The translations under genes were made by a program, and so were the position numbers. The notes under the pieces were generated by a model. That model saw only the letters and a program-made list of their open reading frames with translations. It did no database searches and was not told the origin of the DNA. DNA of 37,009 nucleotides from Clostridia bacterium (GTDB lineage: Bacteria > Bacillota > Clostridia > Christensenellales > Borkfalkiaceae), in contig JAIDRX010000032.1 in the NCBI GenBank assembly GCA_029061495.1, positions 1 to 37,009 of the forward strand, read 5' to 3'. The stretch's first letter is position 1; the number at the start of each line of letters is the position of its first letter. Positions 1,229-19,921 of this stretch are shown here, one piece after another.

Positions 1229-2944
1229 TTAATACTTTTCGCGTTTGCCGTAAGTGGTATGTAAAAGCTTGTGGGCCTTGTGGCTGTTGGGCTTTTCAAA
1301 ATACTCTTTATACAGCGTTTCGACTGCGGGGTTAGAGTGCGAGGTGCGCATTTTACTTTCCTTATCGTAGTCGTAAAGCGCCTGCGCGCGTACCGCCTTT
1401 AAGTCGATAGAGTTTCTTACTTCGTCGTGAACGTAGGGCTGTCCGCCGCCGTTTATACAGCCGCCGGGGCAAGCCATAATCTCAACGAAGGTATAGTCCT
1501 TCTTACCGCTCTTTATATCCTCTATTACCTTTCTCGCATTGCCGAGGCCGCTTGCAACCGCAACCTTAACGGTAGCGCCGCCTACGTTATACTCCGCCTC
1601 TTTTACGCCCTGCGTTCCGCGCACTTCTTTAAACTCCAAAGGTGCGCCGCTTCCGCCAAGCTTATATGCCGCGGTACGTAATGCCGCTTCCATAACGCCG
1701 CCGGTTGCGCCGAAAATCGCACCCGCGCCGCTCGCCTCGCCGAAGGGCAAGTCGAATGCGGAGTCCTCGACGTTGGCAAAATCGATACCCGCTTCCTTAA
1801 TCATTTTAGCAAGCTCGCGCGTGGTCAAAGCCGCGTCCGTGAAATGTCCGAGCTCGTCGCGCGAAATTTCAAACTTTTTAGCCGTGCAGGGGATAACCGA
1901 TACGACGTATAGATTTTTCGGGTCTATGCCGTGCTTTTCGCAATAGTACGTTTTAAGCACTGCCGAGAACATTTCCTGCGGCGATTTGCAGGAGGATATG
2001 TTGGGTAAAAGCTCGGGATAGTAATGCTCGGCAAACTTTATCCAGCCGGGGCAGCAGCTTGTAAACATGGGCAGCTTGCCGCCGTTTTTAATTCTGTCCA
2101 AAAGCTCGTTCGCCTCCTCCATAATAGTGAGGTCGGCGGTTATATCCATATTGAAGCACTTAACGTCGCCGAGCTGTTTTATGGCGGTAACCATCTTGCC
2201 CTCTACGTTCGTCCCTACGGGAAGCCCGAACGCCTCTCCGAGCGTCGCCCTAACCGACGGAGCGGTAAAGAACACAACCTGCTTTTCGGGATCTACTATC
2301 GCGCCCCAGACGTCGGCAACCGCGCTCTTTTCATACAGCGCTCCTACGGGGCAGGCAACCACGCACTGACCGCAGTTTACGCAAGGCGTATACGCAAGCG
2401 AAACGTCGTACGGCGAGCCGATAACCTTTGCATATCCCCTGTTTTTGGGACCTATCGCGCCGATAGTCTGCTGCTCGCACGCGGCAACACAGCGCGTACA
2501 CATAACGCACTTAGAATTATCTCTTACGACCGAAGCCGACAAATCGTCGATAGGCTTAACGTCGTGGTCTGTGCCGAATTTATCCTCTTCCGCGTTGTAC
2601 TCTAAGGCGAGCTTTTGCAATTCGCAGTTCATAGAGCGAACGCAGCTTAAACACTTCTTTTTATGGGTTGAAAGGATAAGCTCAATTGTTGTCTTTCTCG
2701 ACTTTCTTACCCTCGGCGTATTGGTGCGCACTTCCATTCCTTCCGCAACGGGATAAACGCACGCCGCCACAAGTCCCCTTGCGCCCGTCGCTTCAACGAG
2801 GCACACGCGGCACGAGCCGACGCACTGCACGTCCTTTAAATAGCACAGGGTGGGGATTCTTACGTTGGCGACCTTTGCCGCCTGCAATATAGTCGAACCT
2901 TCCGGCACGCTTACCGGAATACCGTTTATTTTAAGATTAACCAT
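1229..2944 (-). CDS. hndD: NADH/NADP-dependent [FeFe] hydrogenase catalytic subunit (HydA/HndD type)
   Basis: N-terminal 2Fe-2S ferredoxin and 4Fe-4S motifs plus H-cluster motifs TSCCPGW, PCTAKK and MACPGGCINGGGQP. Confidence 0.95.
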   Translation of the reverse strand: MVNLKINGIPVSVPEGSTILQAAKVANVRIPTLCYLKDVQCVGSCRVCLVEATGARGLVAACVYPVAEGMEVRTNTPRVRKSRKTTIELILSTHKKKCLSCVRSMNCELQKLALEYNAEEDKFGTDHDVKPIDDLSASVVRDNSKCVMCTRCVAACEQQTIGAIGPKNRGYAKVIGSPYDVSLAYTPCVNCGQCVVACPVGALYEKSAVADVWGAIVDPEKQVVFFTAPSVRATLGEAFGLPVGTNVEGKMVTAIKQLGDVKCFNMDITADLTIMEEANELLDRIKNGGKLPMFTSCCPGWIKFAEHYYPELLPNISSCKSPQEMFSAVLKTYYCEKHGIDPKNLYVVSVIPCTAKKFEISRDELGHFTDAALTTRELAKMIKEAGIDFANVEDSAFDLPFGEASGAGAIFGATGGVMEAALRTAAYKLGGSGAPLEFKEVRGTQGVKEAEYNVGGATVKVAVASGLGNARKVIEDIKSGKKDYTFVEIMACPGGCINGGGQPYVHDEVRNSIDLKAVRAQALYDYDKESKMRTSHSNPAVETLYKEYFEKPNSHKAHKLLHTTYGKREKY

Positions 2945-2954
2945 GCTCCTCACC

Positions 2955-4847
2955 TCACTTCTTCACTATCGCGCTGAAACGGCAGTGCGCTATACACTGT
3001 CCGCATTTAATGCACTTGCTGGGGTCTATCTCATGCGCACTCTTTACAACGCCCGAAATTGCGTTTGCGGGGCAGTTGCGCGCGCACAGCGTACAGCCGC
3101 GGCATCTGTCGGGTTCTATGTAGTAATTCAAAAGCGATTTGCACACGCCCGCGGGGCACTTCTTTTCATAGATGTGCGCCTTGTATTCGTCGCCGAAGTG
3201 CTCCATTGCCGATAGCACGGGGTTGGGCGCGGACTGACCGAGCGCGCATAAAGAAGACGACTTCATATGCTCTGCAATTTCTTTAATCTTTTCCAAGTCC
3301 TCGGGTTCGCCCTTGCCGTCGGTTATTTTTGTAAGCGTCTCCAAAAGGCGCTTAGTACCTATTCTGCAAGGGGTGCATTTGCCGCAGCTTTCGTCCGCGG
3401 TGAACTCTAAGTAGAACTTAGCTATATCCACCATACAGGTGTCCTCGTCCATGACGATAAGACCGCCCGAGCCCATCATCGAGCCGATAGCGACGAGGTT
3501 GTCGAAGTCCATTGCTATATCGATATATTTTGCGGGAATACAGCCGCCCGAGGGACCGCCCGTCTGCGCGGCTTTAAACTTTTTGTCGTTGGGTATTCCG
3601 CCGCCGATATCGTAAATTATGGTTTTCAGCGTAGTGCCCATAGGAACTTCCACAAGACCTACATTTTTGATTTTTCCGCCTACCGCAAATACCTTGGTGC
3701 CCTTGCTCTTTTCGGTACCGATAGACGAGAACCATTCCGAGCCTTTTAAAATTATAGGCGCAACGCTTGCCCACGTCTCAACGTTGTTTATAAGCGTAGG
3801 CTTTCTGAATATACCGCTTTGTGCGGGGAAGGGGGGCTTGGGGCAGGGTTCGCCGCGCTTGCCCTCAACGCTTGCGATAAGCGCCGTTTCCTCGCCGCAG
3901 ACGAACGCACCCGCGCCGAGACGGACGTGAATGTCGAAGTTAAATCCGCTGCCTAAAATATTGTTTCCTAAAAGCCCGAGCTTTCTTGCCTGTGAAATTG
4001 CTATGTTTAACCTTTCAACGGCTATGGGGTACTCCGCGCGGACGTAAATGTAACCCTCCTGCGCGCCTACCGCAAAGCCCGCTATCGTCATAGCCTCGAG
4101 TACGGTGTGGGGGTCGCCCTCCAGAACCGAGCGGTCCATAAACGCGCCGGGGTCGCCCTCGTCCGCGTTACAGCAAACGTATTTTTTGTCGCCTGCCGCG
4201 TCCTTGGTAAACTGCCATTTAAGACCGGTGGGGAAGCCTGCGCCGCCCCTGCCGCGAAGCCCCGCGGCTTTTATTTCCGCGATAACCTCGTCGGGGGTCA
4301 TAGAGGTCAAAACCTTTGCAAGCGCCTTGTAGTCGCCTGCCGCGATAGCTTCCTCGATGCTTTCCGCCGCGATTACGCCGCAGTTTCTTAAAGCTATACG
4401 CATCTGGTGTTTGTAGAAAGGAATTTCCGCAAACGGAATAACGCTGCCGTCTCTATGAACGGTATCCGCATATAAAAGCTCCTTTACTATTCTGCCGCCT
4501 TTAACAAGGTGCCTTTCGGCAACCGTCTTGGCGTGCTCGGGGGTCATCTGCGAGTAGAACGCACCCTCGGGGTAAACTATCATTATGGGACCGAGTGCGC
4601 AAAGTCCGAAGCAGCCCGTCTTTACTATTAAAACGTCGTCTATTTTCAGCTCTTTAAAGCTCTTTTCAAGCTGTTCGATAACCTGCAGAGAGTGCGAGGA
4701 AGTACAGCCCGTACCGCCGCACACCAAAACCTGCTTTCTGTAGCCCGTGTTCTCGGCAAGCTTTTCAGCCTGTTCGCGCACGATGCGCCTTACGTTTATT
4801 AAATCCGCTTTCTGGGCGGCAATGTTTTCAAGTTCCTGTACTGTCAT
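2955..4847 (-). CDS. hndC: NuoF-like hydrogenase subunit (HydB/HndC type)
   Basis: Thioredoxin-like 2Fe-2S N-terminus, GRGGAGFPTGLKW and NADEGDPGAFMDR flavin/NADH motifs, SCGKCTPCRIG, and two C-terminal 4Fe-4S clusters. Confidence 0.95.
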   Translation of the reverse strand: MTVQELENIAAQKADLINVRRIVREQAEKLAENTGYRKQVLVCGGTGCTSSHSLQVIEQLEKSFKELKIDDVLIVKTGCFGLCALGPIMIVYPEGAFYSQMTPEHAKTVAERHLVKGGRIVKELLYADTVHRDGSVIPFAEIPFYKHQMRIALRNCGVIAAESIEEAIAAGDYKALAKVLTSMTPDEVIAEIKAAGLRGRGGAGFPTGLKWQFTKDAAGDKKYVCCNADEGDPGAFMDRSVLEGDPHTVLEAMTIAGFAVGAQEGYIYVRAEYPIAVERLNIAISQARKLGLLGNNILGSGFNFDIHVRLGAGAFVCGEETALIASVEGKRGEPCPKPPFPAQSGIFRKPTLINNVETWASVAPIILKGSEWFSSIGTEKSKGTKVFAVGGKIKNVGLVEVPMGTTLKTIIYDIGGGIPNDKKFKAAQTGGPSGGCIPAKYIDIAMDFDNLVAIGSMMGSGGLIVMDEDTCMVDIAKFYLEFTADESCGKCTPCRIGTKRLLETLTKITDGKGEPEDLEKIKEIAEHMKSSSLCALGQSAPNPVLSAMEHFGDEYKAHIYEKKCPAGVCKSLLNYYIEPDRCRGCTLCARNCPANAISGVVKSAHEIDPSKCIKCGQCIAHCRFSAIVKK

Positions 4848-4860
4848 TTATTCCGCCTCC

Positions 4861-5349
4861 TTAATCCTTCATGTACTTGTCCAAAATTGTAGGGACGTCC
4901 GCCGCCGTCAATTTTCCGTAGACCTCTCCGTCCACTATCATTACGGGCGCAAGTCCGCACGCGCCAACGCAGCGGCAGCTTTCTATCGAGAACTTTTTAT
5001 CGGGCGTACACTCGCCGCAGGATATTCTCAGCTCCCTCTCGATAGCCTCTAAAATTTTGTCCGAACCCTTTACGTAGCAAGCCGTGCCGAGGCATACGCT
5101 TATCTGGTGCTTGCCCTTAGGGGTGAGCGAAAACTGCGAGTAGAATGTTGCAACGCCGTATACTTCGGCAAGGGGTATTTCAAGCTCCTCGGCTATAACC
5201 GTCTGAACTTCCGCGGGAAGATAGCCGTAAATGTTCTGCGCCTCGTGCAATACGGGCATAAGTGCGCCGGGCTCGTTGCGGTGAGCGTTTATGCAGCTTA
5301 AAAGCTGCGCCATCTGCTCTTCCGTTCCCTCAAAAAGATTTTGTGCCAT
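4861..5349 (-). CDS. hndA: NuoE-like hydrogenase subunit (HydC/HndA type)
   Basis: GVATFYSQFSLTPKGKHQISVCLGTACYVKG and CRCVGACGLAPVM; ATG at 5349 with an AGGAGAG RBS upstream. Confidence 0.93.
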   Translation of the reverse strand: MAQNLFEGTEEQMAQLLSCINAHRNEPGALMPVLHEAQNIYGYLPAEVQTVIAEELEIPLAEVYGVATFYSQFSLTPKGKHQISVCLGTACYVKGSDKILEAIERELRISCGECTPDKKFSIESCRCVGACGLAPVMIVDGEVYGKLTAADVPTILDKYMKD

Positions 5350-5376
5350 TAGTCTCTCCTGTTGATTTTTTGCCGT

Positions 5377-5415
5377 TTTATTAATCAATAAATTAATACT
5401 GATTAATTATAACAC
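5377..5415 (-). promoter_or_regulatory. Promoter region of hnd operon with inverted repeat ATTAATCA-N12-TGATTAAT (possible operator)
   Basis: Minus strand has a TATAAT -10 immediately upstream of a perfect 8-bp inverted repeat. Confidence 0.4.
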
Positions 5416-7084: not shown

Positions 7085-7113
7085 TTGAAAAATACAAAAC
7101 AATATGCTATAAT
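7085..7113 (+). promoter_or_regulatory. Array 1 first-cassette promoter
   Basis: TTGAAA-17 bp-TATAAT. Confidence 0.7.
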
Positions 7114-7143
7114 TATTTAAAGGGTAAAAGACTTTAATTTGCT

Positions 7144-7254
7144 TGGCTGCGTACCGGCGGCGACACTGATGCTTCCGGCGCTAATTATCTGTCGGGTATA
7201 GGTAGTGCTTACGGTACGGACAATTTGCTCCTCTTTGCGGTGCGGCCTGCGCTT
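7144..7254 (+). other. Variable cassette A1-1: WLRTGGDTDASGANYLSGIGSAYGTDNLLLFAVRPAL
   Basis: Stop-free 37-codon core between constant flanks. Confidence 0.85.
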
Positions 7255-7335
7255 CAATTTTACCACGCCAAACAGATTTACAAACCTCATACTTTGCGGT
7301 ATAATCAGGCAAAGGGTAAAAGACTTTATTTTGCT

Positions 7336-7446
7336 TGGCTGCGTTCCGCCGATTATTCTTATGCGTACAATGCTGTTTATATTTCGGGCAGCGGGTCCGG
7401 TGATTGGACTATCGCTGCTCGGCGGTTAACGGTGCGGCCTGCGCTT
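7336..7446 (+). other. Variable cassette A1-2: WLRSADYSYAYNAVYISGSGSGDWTIAARRLTVRPAL
   Basis: As A1-1; 111 nt. Confidence 0.85.
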
Positions 7447-7529
7447 TACTTTTACCTCGCCAAAACAGGTTTACAAACCTCATATTTTTGCGGTATAATC
7501 AGGCAAAGGGTAAAAGACTTAAATTTGCT

Positions 7530-7640
7530 TGGCTGCGTTCCGGCTTCACTACTCTTACTGCTTACGGTTCGGGTTATCTTGCGAACAAGAGCGGTGCTTC
7601 TGCTTTAACTTCGCGACTCATAGCGGTGCGGCCTGCGCTT
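7530..7640 (+). other. Variable cassette A1-3: WLRSGFTTLTAYGSGYLANKSGASALTSRLIAVRPAL
   Basis: As A1-1; 111 nt. Confidence 0.85.
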
Positions 7641-7725
7641 CATACTTTTACCTTCGCCAAACAGGTTTACAAACCTCATAACTTTGCGGTATAATTGCCC
7701 AAAGGGTAAAAGACTTCATTTTGCT

Positions 7726-7836
7726 TGGCTGCGTTCCGGCAATAATCGTTATGCGTACTTTGCTTCTTACCTTTGCGGTACGGGAGACTACGACACTCCT
7801 TACCCGGCGCGTCAGTTAGCGGTGCGGCCTGCGCTT
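7726..7836 (+). other. Variable cassette A1-4: WLRSGNNRYAYFASYLCGTGDYDTPYPARQLAVRPAL
   Basis: As A1-1; 111 nt; last cassette before the terminal element. Confidence 0.85.
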
Positions 7837-8045
7837 CACTCACTCCGCAAGTATTATATTTTGGCGGTGGTTTCCCGTATTCGGTTAGTGATTCACAACC
7901 GAACAGATTGATGTGAGTTGAAGGGTCTTTTGTCCGGTTCTTGCAAACTATGCAAGACGAATAAAAGCCCAACCACGGTGTAACGCAAGCAATTAGGCTT
8001 GGTTTACTTCCGTTTCCGAAAGGGGTTGGGCAATACTTTAAAAAT
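7837..8045 (+). ncRNA. Array-terminal structured RNA candidate, copy 1
   Basis: Homologous to 13640-13869 (-) and 18608-18814 (-). Helices: TCTTGC/GCAAGA (7939-7957), GCCCAACC/GGTTGGGC (7967-8031), GTAA-CG-CAAGC-AATTAG-GCTTG-GT-TTAC (7980-8007). Confidence 0.7.
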
Positions 8046-13639: not shown

Positions 13640-13869
13640 AAACGCCCGTAAGATACGGACGCCCCTAAAAAGGTATGACCCGAACGCACTAAGCAAACGG
13701 ACCTGAACCGCACTTAATTGTACGCGTCAGGACGTGGACGGGTCTGATTTGCCTCCCCGAAAGCGGAAAGGACAGGACAAAAACCCCTTCAACTCATATC
13801 ATACTGTTCAGTTGTGAATCACAAACCGAATACTGGAAAATCCCTCGCCAAATATTTTGCGGGTGAGCG
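13640..13869 (-). ncRNA. Array-terminal structured RNA candidate, copy 2, with terminator
   Basis: Minus strand TTCGGTTTGTGATTCACAACTGAAC..., then helices CCTTTCCG/CGGGGAGG, GACCCG/CGGGTC and CTGA-CG-CGTAC-AATTAA-GTGCG-GT-TCAG; ends with GCGTCCGTATCTTACGGGCGTTTTTT. Confidence 0.7.
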
Positions 13870-13980
13870 AAGCGCAGGCCGCACCGCTAAACGTTGCGAG
13901 GGGTAAGCAACATAGAAGCTCCCCATCCCGCAAAGGTAATGCGCATCGTACGCAACACCATCAGCGCCGGTACGCAGCCA
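13870..13980 (-). other. Variable cassette A2-4: WLRTGADGVAYDAHYLCGMGSFYVAYPSQRLAVRPAL
   Basis: Stop-free 37 codons between constant flanks. Confidence 0.85.
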
Positions 13981-14177
13981 AACAAATTAAAAGCTTTTGC
14001 CCTTTATCTGATTTTACCGCAAAATTATTTTGTTTGCAAATTTTTGGAAGGACGAGGGTGGATTTCTCAAAACAGTGTAGTACACTGTTTTGCCGCCCGA
14101 GGTGAGCGCTGCGCATTATACGCGCAGTCGCGGTGCCCGAGAACGGCGTTGTCCTTACGCTGTTCGAGAAAGACTTA

Positions 14178-14285
14178 AAGCGCAGGCCGCACCGCTAACA
14201 AACGAGAAGTGTAAGCAGTATAAAAATCTCCCATACCACTCATGTAAGAAGCGGCAAGCGCACTGGACGTGCCGGAACGCAGCCG
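14178..14285 (-). other. Variable cassette A2-3: RLRSGTSSALAASYMSGMGDFYTAYTSRLLAVRPAL
   Basis: Stop-free 36 codons; first W changed to R (TGG to CGG). Confidence 0.85.
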
Positions 14286-14365
14286 AGTAAATTTAAGTTT
14301 TTGCCCTTTATTTAATTTTACTGCAAAACTATGTTATTTGCAAATTTTTGGCAAGGGCTAAACTG

Positions 14366-14476
14366 AAGCGCAGGCCGCACCGCCAACAAGCGTGAGGTGT
14401 AAGCACTGTAATTACTGCCTGACCCCGATAGGTAACCAGCATAATACGCAGGACTATGATTGCCGGAACGCAGCCA
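14366..14476 (-). other. Variable cassette A2-2: WLRSGNHSPAYYAGYLSGSGSNYSAYTSRLLAVRPAL
   Basis: Stop-free 37 codons between constant flanks. Confidence 0.85.
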
Positions 14477-14557
14477 AGTAATTTAAAGCTTTTGCCCTTT
14501 ATTTAATTTTACCGAAAAATTATTTTGTTTGCAAATCTTTTGGCAAGGGCTAACTTA

Positions 14558-14668
14558 AAGCGCAGGCCGCACCGCTAAATTAATTGCAGAGTAGGTACCG
14601 TCACCACTGCCTGAACCAGACAAGCACCACGCACTGTTCGCATTTCTACTCTCGCCGGAACGCAGCCA
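14558..14668 (-). other. Variable cassette A2-1: WLRSGESRNANSAWCLSGSGSGDGTYSAINLAVRPAL
   Basis: Stop-free 37 codons between constant flanks. Confidence 0.85.
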
Positions 14669-14697
14669 AATAAATTAAAGTTTTTGCCCTTTGACTT

Positions 14698-18286: not shown

Positions 18287-18449
18287 TGTATACCTCCTTT
18301 CCGCATATCCGCGGTAATTAAAAATTCCCTGCGACCCAAAGGGCGACAGGGAAAAACCAACGTAATAAAATAAAAACGTTTATCCTGCACCTGAGCGGGA
18401 AATTAAGTCTTGCGACGCCCGCCGTCTTGGGTTGCAAATATGTTTTACG
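18287..18449 (-). ncRNA. L10 (rplJ) ribosomal protein leader
   Basis: Minus strand AAGACGGCGGGCG...CTTAATTTCCCGCTCAGGTGCAGGATA is L10-leader-like; followed by attenuator-like ATTCCCTGTCGCCCTTTGGGTCGCAGGGAATTTTT. Confidence 0.8.
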
Positions 18450-18547: not shown

Positions 18548-18607
18548 TTTTATGCAGTTAATAATAAATTTTTATGAGCTGCGCCCCGCGCCGAAAAGCG
18601 CGGGGCG

Positions 18608-18814
18608 TTTAAAAAAAATTGCCCAACCCCCTGCCACAGGAAATGAACCGTAAACCAAGTTTAATTGCTTGCGTTACGCCATGGTCGGACACCGTTCGCC
18701 TCCCTTAAAAAGCGGAAGGACAGGATAAAAGACCCTTCAACTCAAATCAACAGTTCGGTTGTGAATCACAAACCGAATACGGGAAACCACCGCCAATTTT
18801 TTTGCGGGTGAGCG
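18608..18814 (-). ncRNA. Array-terminal structured RNA candidate, copy 3
   Basis: Minus strand TTCGGTTTGTGATTCACAACCGAAC..., helices CCTTCC/GGGAGG, GTCCGACC/GGTTGGGC (18690-18683 / 18628-18621) followed by T8, and GTAA-CG-CAAG-CAATTAAA-CTTG-GT-TTAC. Confidence 0.72.
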
Positions 18815-18925
18815 AAGCGCAGGCCGCACCGCTAAAAGAATACCGGGGAGTGCACCAAACTCAGTACCGATACCGCACAGGTAGTCCACACACTTCGCAT
18901 TGTTGTACCAGCCGGAACGCAGCCA
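18815..18925 (-). other. Variable cassette A3-6: WLRSGWYNNAKCVDYLCGIGTEFGALPGILLAVRPAL
   Basis: Stop-free 37 codons between constant flanks. Confidence 0.85.
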
Positions 18926-19005
18926 AGCAAATAAAGCCTTTTACCCTTTAATTAATTATACCGCAAAATATAAGGTTATGCAAACCTGTTTGGCGGGGTA
19001 GGTAC

Positions 19006-19116
19006 AAGCGCAGGCCGCACCGCTAAGAGAAACGAGTTTACGGTATCATAATCAGCACCTGATCCGGATATATAATACCCATTTTGAGCATCGCCCATCT
19101 TGCCGGTACGCAGCCA
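19006..19116 (-). other. Variable cassette A3-5: WLRTGKMGDAQNGYYISGSGADYDTVNSFLLAVRPAL
   Basis: Stop-free 37 codons between constant flanks. Confidence 0.85.
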
Positions 19117-19196
19117 AGTAAATTAAGTCCTTTACCCTTTAATTAATTATACTGCAAAATATAAGGTTATGCAAACCTGTTTGGCGGGTTAAGTAC

Positions 19197-19307
19197 AAGC
19201 GCAGGCCGCACCGCTAAGAGTCGCGAGTTGTAAGTGCTCCATGAGCCACCCGTCCCTGACAAGTAATCAAGATCATGTGCAAGGCTATTAAGACCGGAAC
19301 GCAGCCA
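19197..19307 (-). other. Variable cassette A3-4: WLRSGLNSLAHDLDYLSGTGGSWSTYNSRLLAVRPAL
   Basis: Stop-free 37 codons between constant flanks. Confidence 0.85.
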
Positions 19308-19389
19308 AGCAATATTAAGTCCTTCACCCTTTAATTAATTATACCGCAAAATATAAGGTTTTGCAAAACTCTTTGGCGGGGCAAAAGTA

Positions 19390-19506
19390 AAGCGCAGGCC
19401 GCACCGCTAAAAGTCGCGATGTATATGCATTCCACGCGTCTCCGTTACTCGAAATATAATGTGCACCGTATGCAACTTTGCCATTACTAAAGCCGGAACG
19501 CAGCCA
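19390..19506 (-). other. Variable cassette A3-3: WLRSGFSNGKVAYGAHYISSNGDAWNAYTSRLLAVRPAL
   Basis: Stop-free 39 codons (117 nt); length change is a multiple of 3. Confidence 0.85.
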
Positions 19507-19585
19507 AGCAAATTAAGCCTTTTACCCTTTAATTAACTATACCGCAAAATATGAGGTTTGTAAACCTGTTTGGCGGGGTAAGTAC

Positions 19586-19696
19586 AAGCGCAGGCCGCAC
19601 CGCTAACTGACGCGATGTATAAGCATCACTATTACTGCCTGACACCGATAGGTAACTAGCGCTACACGCATCACCACGACTGCCGGTACGCAGCCA
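19586..19696 (-). other. Variable cassette A3-2: WLRTGSRGDACSASYLSVSGSNSDAYTSRQLAVRPAL
   Basis: Stop-free 37 codons between constant flanks. Confidence 0.85.
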
Positions 19697-19780
19697 AGCA
19701 ATATTAAGTCCTTTACCCTTTAAATTAATTATACCGCAAAATATGAGGTTTTGCAAACCTGTTTGGCAGTGGTAAAAGTA

Positions 19781-19891
19781 AAGCGCAGACCGCACCGCAT
19801 AAGGACGGTCTACATAGGTATGGTTACCACCGCCCGTCCCTGTCAAATAACCGGAGCCATTAGCCACGCTATCATAGCCGGAACGCAGCCA
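19781..19891 (-). other. Variable cassette A3-1: WLRSGYDSVANGSGYLTGTGGGNHTYVDRPYAVRSAL
   Basis: Stop-free 37 codons between constant flanks. Confidence 0.85.
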
Positions 19892-19921
19892 AGCTAATTT
19901 AAGTCTTTTACCCTTTACAAA

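Follow-up and report, generated by a model that had tools for sequence, protein, structure and literature searches.

A folded spacer-like RNA ends arrays of diversity-generating retroelement cassettes in a Clostridia bacterium

INTRODUCTION

Diversity-generating retroelements (DGRs) are usually viewed as systems in which one template rewrites one or a few genes and earlier variants are lost. Silent-cassette systems, such as pilS/pilE of Neisseria and vls of Borrelia, store numerous in-frame variants that are untranslated and have conserved ends, and their expressed copy is identical to one of these variants. Here, we analyzed an RNA element that follows the last cassette of each of three arrays in a 37,009-nucleotide contig of Clostridia bacterium (JAIDRX010000032.1, GenBank assembly GCA_029061495.1, Borkfalkiaceae), referred to below as the window. 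We found that the cassettes are DGR template/variable units and that the element is, with near certainty, a DGR RNA, the 3' spacer domain of the template RNA.

The DGR of Bordetella phage BPP-1 comprises brt, avd, a template repeat (TR), a spacer (Sp), and a variable repeat (VR) of mtd, and its Sp folds and recruits bRT-Avd (PMC12875486). The system described here is like it in having a reverse transcriptase (RT), Avd, an adenine-rich TR, a VR in a surface or receptor gene, a folded RNA spacer 3' of the TR, and possible pairing of the sequence just 5' of the TR with the spacer. It differs in having three arrayed TRs, each with a leader; in its order, RT-Avd-TR-element instead of Avd-TR-Sp-RT; in the fold of the element, whose covariance model (R1) matches no distant DGR; and in having about 20 further chromosomal arrays of mutated, untranslated template units. 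Multiple VRs occur in 28.6% of DGRs (PMC6642488), multiple TRs are known from surveys (e.g., PMC6642488 and PMC3521204), and one VR outside an identifiable coding region has been noted (PMC3521204). The VRs of the surveyed DGRs with several VRs or TRs lie mostly in open reading frames (PMC6642488 and PMC3521204), whereas the units described here are untranslated. In the open-access literature, outside of which most subscription papers lie, we found no precedent for promoter-driven, spacer-ended arrays of untranslated VR-like units. The element itself adds a new member to a known kind; the novelty lies in the untranslated template arrays, which are diversified, promoter-driven, and spread genome-wide.

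RESULTS

The window is contig C109 of a 1.47-Mb genome in 182 contigs (G000). The assemblies used here are fragmented, arrays often lie at contig ends, and each species is represented by one genome. We found one RVT_1 gene in G000, on contig C175. The order on this contig is RT, Avd, three adenine-rich TRs (TR1 to TR3; GGCAATAATAATAATGCG...), the element, and a 1,689-residue open frame with a VR in frame and a membrane anchor at the C terminus. The best solved relative of the 376-amino-acid RT is the RT of the BPP-1 DGR (8ub7; E = 1e-33), and the protein matches the PHROG reverse transcriptase with an E value of 1e-97. Its motifs include YMDD and IGNQTSQ, the latter of which we take to stand in place of the usual QG...SP motif. 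The Avd protein matches PF22296 (bAvd) at 46.1 bits (cutoff, 40) as well as phrog_3206, the PHROG "Avd protein of DGR." A second target gene with a VR is present on C154. By eye and without statistics, a stem-loop can be seen just 3' of the target VR in G000 (GCCGC-GCAA-GCGGC) and at a like place in the relative G052 (GCCGC-GTCA-GCGGC). We concluded that the C175 system is a DGR.

After RT, Avd, and the TRs, the element occupies the position of the DGR spacer RNA, which makes it the Sp-like 3' domain of the template RNA. A preliminary description, drawn from the sequence of the window, had offered a terminal anchor, a DGR-like hairpin, and a stand-alone noncoding RNA as options. The DGR option came closest to what we found. 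The element is a spacer domain and not a mere terminal anchor, and it both follows RT-Avd-TR in a DGR locus and pairs with cassette leaders, which argues against a stand-alone RNA.

R1, whose E values are rough because its calibration was short, placed each of the three homologous copies that had been described in the window, at 163 to 195 bits: 7865 to 8045 (+; array 1; 194.8 bits), 13664 to 13845 (−; array 2; 164.1 bits), and 18607 to 18792 (−; array 3; 163.3 bits). The mean column identity in the alignment of these copies is about 75%. The palindrome quoted for all of them is exact in the third copy only; it reads TTCGGTTAGTGATTCACAACCGAA in copy 1 and has the ending AACTGAA in copy 2. In the array 1 copy, this palindrome is hairpin H1 (7880 to 7903, +; TTCGG..CCGAA), in which five of nine pairs show two-sided change among 19 copies. 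Downstream of it on the same strand are the leader-pairing motif AAGGGTCTTTTGTCC (7921 to 7935), which is the complement of the array 1 leaders GGGTAAAAGACTT; hairpin H2 (7937 to 7960); and the closing helix H3 (7967 to 8031), formed by GCCCAACC (7967 to 7974) and GGTTGGGC (8024 to 8031) and enclosing helix H4. H2, H3, and H4 correspond to helices A, B, and C of the preliminary description and exist as it described them. The pairing motif is AAGGGGTTTTTGTCC in the array 2 copy, where it matches the leader class of its own array, and AAGGGTCTTTTATCC in the array 3 copy.

The elements were first detected by DNA similarity, and R1 has 20 matches in G000, 19 of them strong. Because three sequences are insufficient to prove covariation, we aligned the 19 same-genome copies. 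We found two-sided change with pairing kept in 20 of 37 pairs, with 96.9% of cells paired, and none of 500 shuffles equaled this covariation. When the predicted structure was shifted by 1 to 3 columns, pairing fell to only 38 to 52%. An alignment of 28 R1 matches from the G000 DGR locus and relatives, fitted to the model, gave two-sided change in 25 of 37 pairs, again with 0 of 500 shuffles as good. The covariation first suggested from three copies was thus borne out, as was the view that the element belongs to no named RNA class: Rfam 15 gave no element match, either in the window at the gathering threshold or in three other element-bearing loci at E ≤ 1. The element was absent from the phage and plasmid records searched. 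Terminator-like hairpins directly follow several copies. We concluded that the element is a folded RNA under selection.

In most relatives, R1 located the element downstream of RT, with the order RT-Avd-TR-element kept. Among 94 genomes of the genus, a close RT (44 to 100% identity) is present in 16 and the element likewise in 16, with 15 genomes carrying both; the exceptions are G053 (RT only) and G090 (element only). R1 gave no match in 23 distant DGR loci; within what was tested, the fold is therefore confined to the genus. Two further arrangements were seen. G090 has several diversified arrays with elements (L125 to L128 and L241), and no RT was found in its assembly. On contig C213 of G025 (L124, 2258 to 4168), six tandem units directly follow RT and Avd, each with its own TR and complete element.

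A short leader precedes the variable unit, and we found that it pairs over about 12 to 14 bp with the element of the same array, at the segment AAGGG..GTCC. In G000, leader and element classes match, GGGTAAAAGACTT going with GGGTCTTTTG and GGGCAAAAGCTTT with GGGG(C/T)TTTTG. Across species, the change is compensatory: GGGTGAAAGTTC goes with GAACTTTCGTCC in G022 and GGCGGTAACCC with GGGTTACCGTCC in G057. The duplex energies of the matched pairs were equaled by 0 of 20,000 permutations for the arrays of G000 (18), for those of relatives (18), and for all 36. Leader-spacer pairing is also seen at the same place in several distant DGRs, e.g., L145 (GGTGTATATCC with GGATATACACC) and L155. The Sp of BPP-1 can form a duplex with the 3' end of avd immediately after position 56, an adenine that is presumably the priming site; the statistics of this pairing are weak. 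When the whole 60-nt flank was paired with Sp, the duplex was no better than shuffled (fraction, 0.39), and a specific-looking duplex appeared only with the last 25 nt of the flank, a figure without a shuffled control, so that the BPP-1 pairing is suggestive only. As the distant DGRs show, leader-spacer pairing is more widespread than the R1 fold.

Most cassettes are preceded by a sigma-70-like promoter whose predicted start is at the short leader. A −10 box with at least five of six matches lies before the leader in 19 of 20 array-first cassettes (shuffled rate, 17%); in 18 array-first cassettes, the box starts exactly 14 nt before the leader. The DNA upstream of array-first cassettes is mostly unrelated between arrays. 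Inner cassettes have a −10 box in 40 of 49 cases. The predicted transcripts would begin at or beside the leader.

G000 contains about 20 scattered arrays with about 70 untranslated, A-mutated cassettes, and when translated, the unit reads LR(S/T)G...variable...LAVRPAL. We read 68 dispersed cassettes, besides the two target genes (C175 and C154) and the three TRs. Compared with the best of the three TRs, they differ at 946 of 1,719 A sites (55%) and at 1,195 of 5,943 other sites (20%). Of the best cases, C95-2094 differs from TR2 at 7 A and 3 other sites, and another differs from its TR at 10 A and 3 other sites. We infer that the non-A differences partly reflect TRs that have since been lost. 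None of the 68 cassettes has an in-frame stop, versus 35 expected in a simulation that placed the same changes randomly, and the two other frames contain stops in 57 and 61 cassettes. Length differs in 17 cassettes, always by a multiple of three, to which triplet slippage in AAT runs could contribute.

We rejected the idea that the cassettes are small proteins, as an ATG is missing from nearly all of them and an in-frame stop lies within a few codons upstream of many; many cannot be translated where they stand. Nor did we find a clear case of a dispersed cassette that could have been the A-only template of another cassette or of the C154 gene. In one array on C82 (L057), the cassettes ending at 1233 and 1615 are identical over 51 bases and differ beyond them, a pattern that partial conversion of one of the two would give.

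The VR of the C175 gene is identical to a cassette on C94 over 110 of 110 bp, with the identity breaking off close to the limits of the VR. Of the relatives compared, G052 is nearest to G000 (rplA, 96%). A scan of 399 genomes of the family with an exact pattern had pointed to mass dispersal as unique to G000; this was refuted by 55 protein-search matches in G052, which also means that the exact pattern was too strict. We read 58 units in G052, 57 of them outside the gene, and found all to be in frame and stop-free. The VR of the G052 gene on C46 is identical to the first cassette of array C16 (111 of 111 bp). In both species, the gene-matching cassette is the first of its array, which, with two cases, is only a hint. 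Many G052 cassettes share a 9-nt flank, GGCTACACT, with the gene. The single dispersed cassettes of G052 (L225 to L240) have a shortened element, made up of a hairpin and the leader-pairing motif GAAGGGAACCGCCGTC, often with a variable stem inserted between, and lack the 3' helices.

In the window, array 1 (+) contains four cassettes, at 7122 to 7254 (leader GGGTAAAAGACTT, 7122 to 7134; variable unit, 7145 to 7254), 7314 to 7446 (leader at 7314; unit, 7337 to 7446), 7508 to 7640 (leader at 7508; unit, 7531 to 7640), and 7704 to 7836 (leader at 7704; unit, 7727 to 7836). The −10 box of the first, TATAAT (7108 to 7113, +), lies 14 nt before the leader. The TR nearest to the fourth unit is TR3, from which it differs at 12 of 23 A and 13 of 87 other sites. 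Array 2 (13870 to 14689, −) contains four cassettes, with leaders of the GGGCAAAAGCTTT class at 14689, 14497, 14306, and 14002 and variable units at 14558 to 14667, 14366 to 14475, 14178 to 14284, and 13870 to 13979. Array 3 (18815 to 19913, −) contains six, with leaders at 19913, 19718, 19527, 19329, 19137, and 18946 and variable units at 19781 to 19890, 19586 to 19695, 19390 to 19505, 19197 to 19306, 19006 to 19115, and 18815 to 18924. It sits between rplA and rplJ, where the gap is 1.7 kb, versus about 0.2 kb in G060; the gap is without an array in all four relatives in which it was read.

In array 2, a foreign piece with the palindrome AAACAGTGTACTACACTGTTT (14041 to 14175, −) separates the last cassette from the others. 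Pieces like it adjoin array elements on C155 and C166 (L065, about 1820 to 1900; L066, about 3040 to 3100), and the piece is possibly a small mobile element. A ribosomal protein L10 leader (RF00557) lies between array 3 and rplJ (18311 to 18449, −). The region from 1229 to 5388 (−) contains, by translated motifs, an ordinary NADH-dependent [FeFe]-hydrogenase-like gene set.

DISCUSSION

We consider it probable that a DGR has expanded here into a promoter-driven, pre-diversified library of templates or donors that feeds surface-protein genes. This explanation builds directly on the DGR identity, the RNA structure, the leader-element covariation, the A-biased difference from the TRs, the frame conservation, and the identity of a gene VR with a cassette in two species. 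Beyond these, we infer that the dispersed arrays function as a library, that they are transcribed and used by the RT, and in which direction and by what route variants move. Each array would be a gene for template RNAs. Transcription would start at a cassette promoter, the 5' leader of the RNA would pair with the terminal element, and the unit between them would be the template for RT-Avd copying. The TR1-to-TR3 array beside RT and Avd on C175 would be the master template set, and the roughly 20 arrays elsewhere would be a stored library of A-mutated, in-frame, untranslated versions that exchanges variants with the expressed surface-protein genes. In a more specific form, for which we judge the case evenly balanced, the DGR has two tiers: the master array writes random variants into scattered promoter-driven arrays, and a heritable, tested repertoire is reinstalled unchanged in the surface gene. 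Such a system would be a retroelement with memory, in which DGR mutation is joined to silent-cassette switching.

Several observations weigh against a library of RT templates. The C154 target VR matches no cassette in G000. Adenine-mutagenic copying should not yield a cassette and a gene that are exactly identical, so that transfer may instead occur by recombination, or as archiving from gene to array. The shortened elements of G052 lack the 3' helices, and so the RT may not use those cassettes. The same exact identity in two species, together with the common gene flank and the shortened elements of G052, would suit silent-cassette gene conversion, in which the cassettes are RecA-type donors, as pilS is for pilE, and the RNA parts are unused leftovers of the master TR array. 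Here, as in gene conversion systems, an expressed copy is identical to a silent copy in both G000 and G052; the silent copies of such systems have no promoter, whereas promoter-like sequence precedes most cassettes. Moreover, the elements, leaders, and promoters of the dispersed arrays in G000 are kept by compensatory and conservative change, which is unexpected for leftovers, and we regard gene conversion alone as rather unlikely.

We think it less likely still that the arrays are passive targets, duplicated TR arrays that are overwritten through their shared VR ends by mutagenic cDNA from C175 and have no function in the cell. The resemblance of cassettes to A-mutated TR1 to TR3 (e.g., C95-2094) would fit this, and A-site changes alone seldom create stops (1.25 of 68 in simulation). 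However, overwriting of VRs cannot maintain an element, a matching leader, and a promoter that lie outside the VR, and it leaves the gene VRs identical to a cassette in two species unexplained. It is highly improbable that the element is a regulatory or processing RNA that stands alone, has no relation to the DGR, and ends repeat arrays by chance. Its own promoter-like sequences and the terminator-like hairpins after several copies could be read in this way, but its position after RT-Avd-TR, its co-occurrence with RT, and its pairing with TR leaders as in other DGRs contradict it.

An expanded DGR library would work like pilS/pilE and vls: its many in-frame variants are untranslated, their ends are conserved, and one of them is identical to an expressed copy. 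Unlike those systems, the units in G000 are DGR derived, carry promoters and structured RNA, and are spread over about 20 loci.

Rfam contains no covariance model of a DGR spacer RNA, and our alignment supplies one. Because leader-spacer pairing is specific to the array, template choice and the structure of DGR RNA become testable. Outside its genes, this bacterium maintains about 70 alternative variants in frame, most with a promoter and an RNA leader, and a second species is alike. If the cassettes are donors, the bacterium can recall as well as invent variants of its surface proteins.
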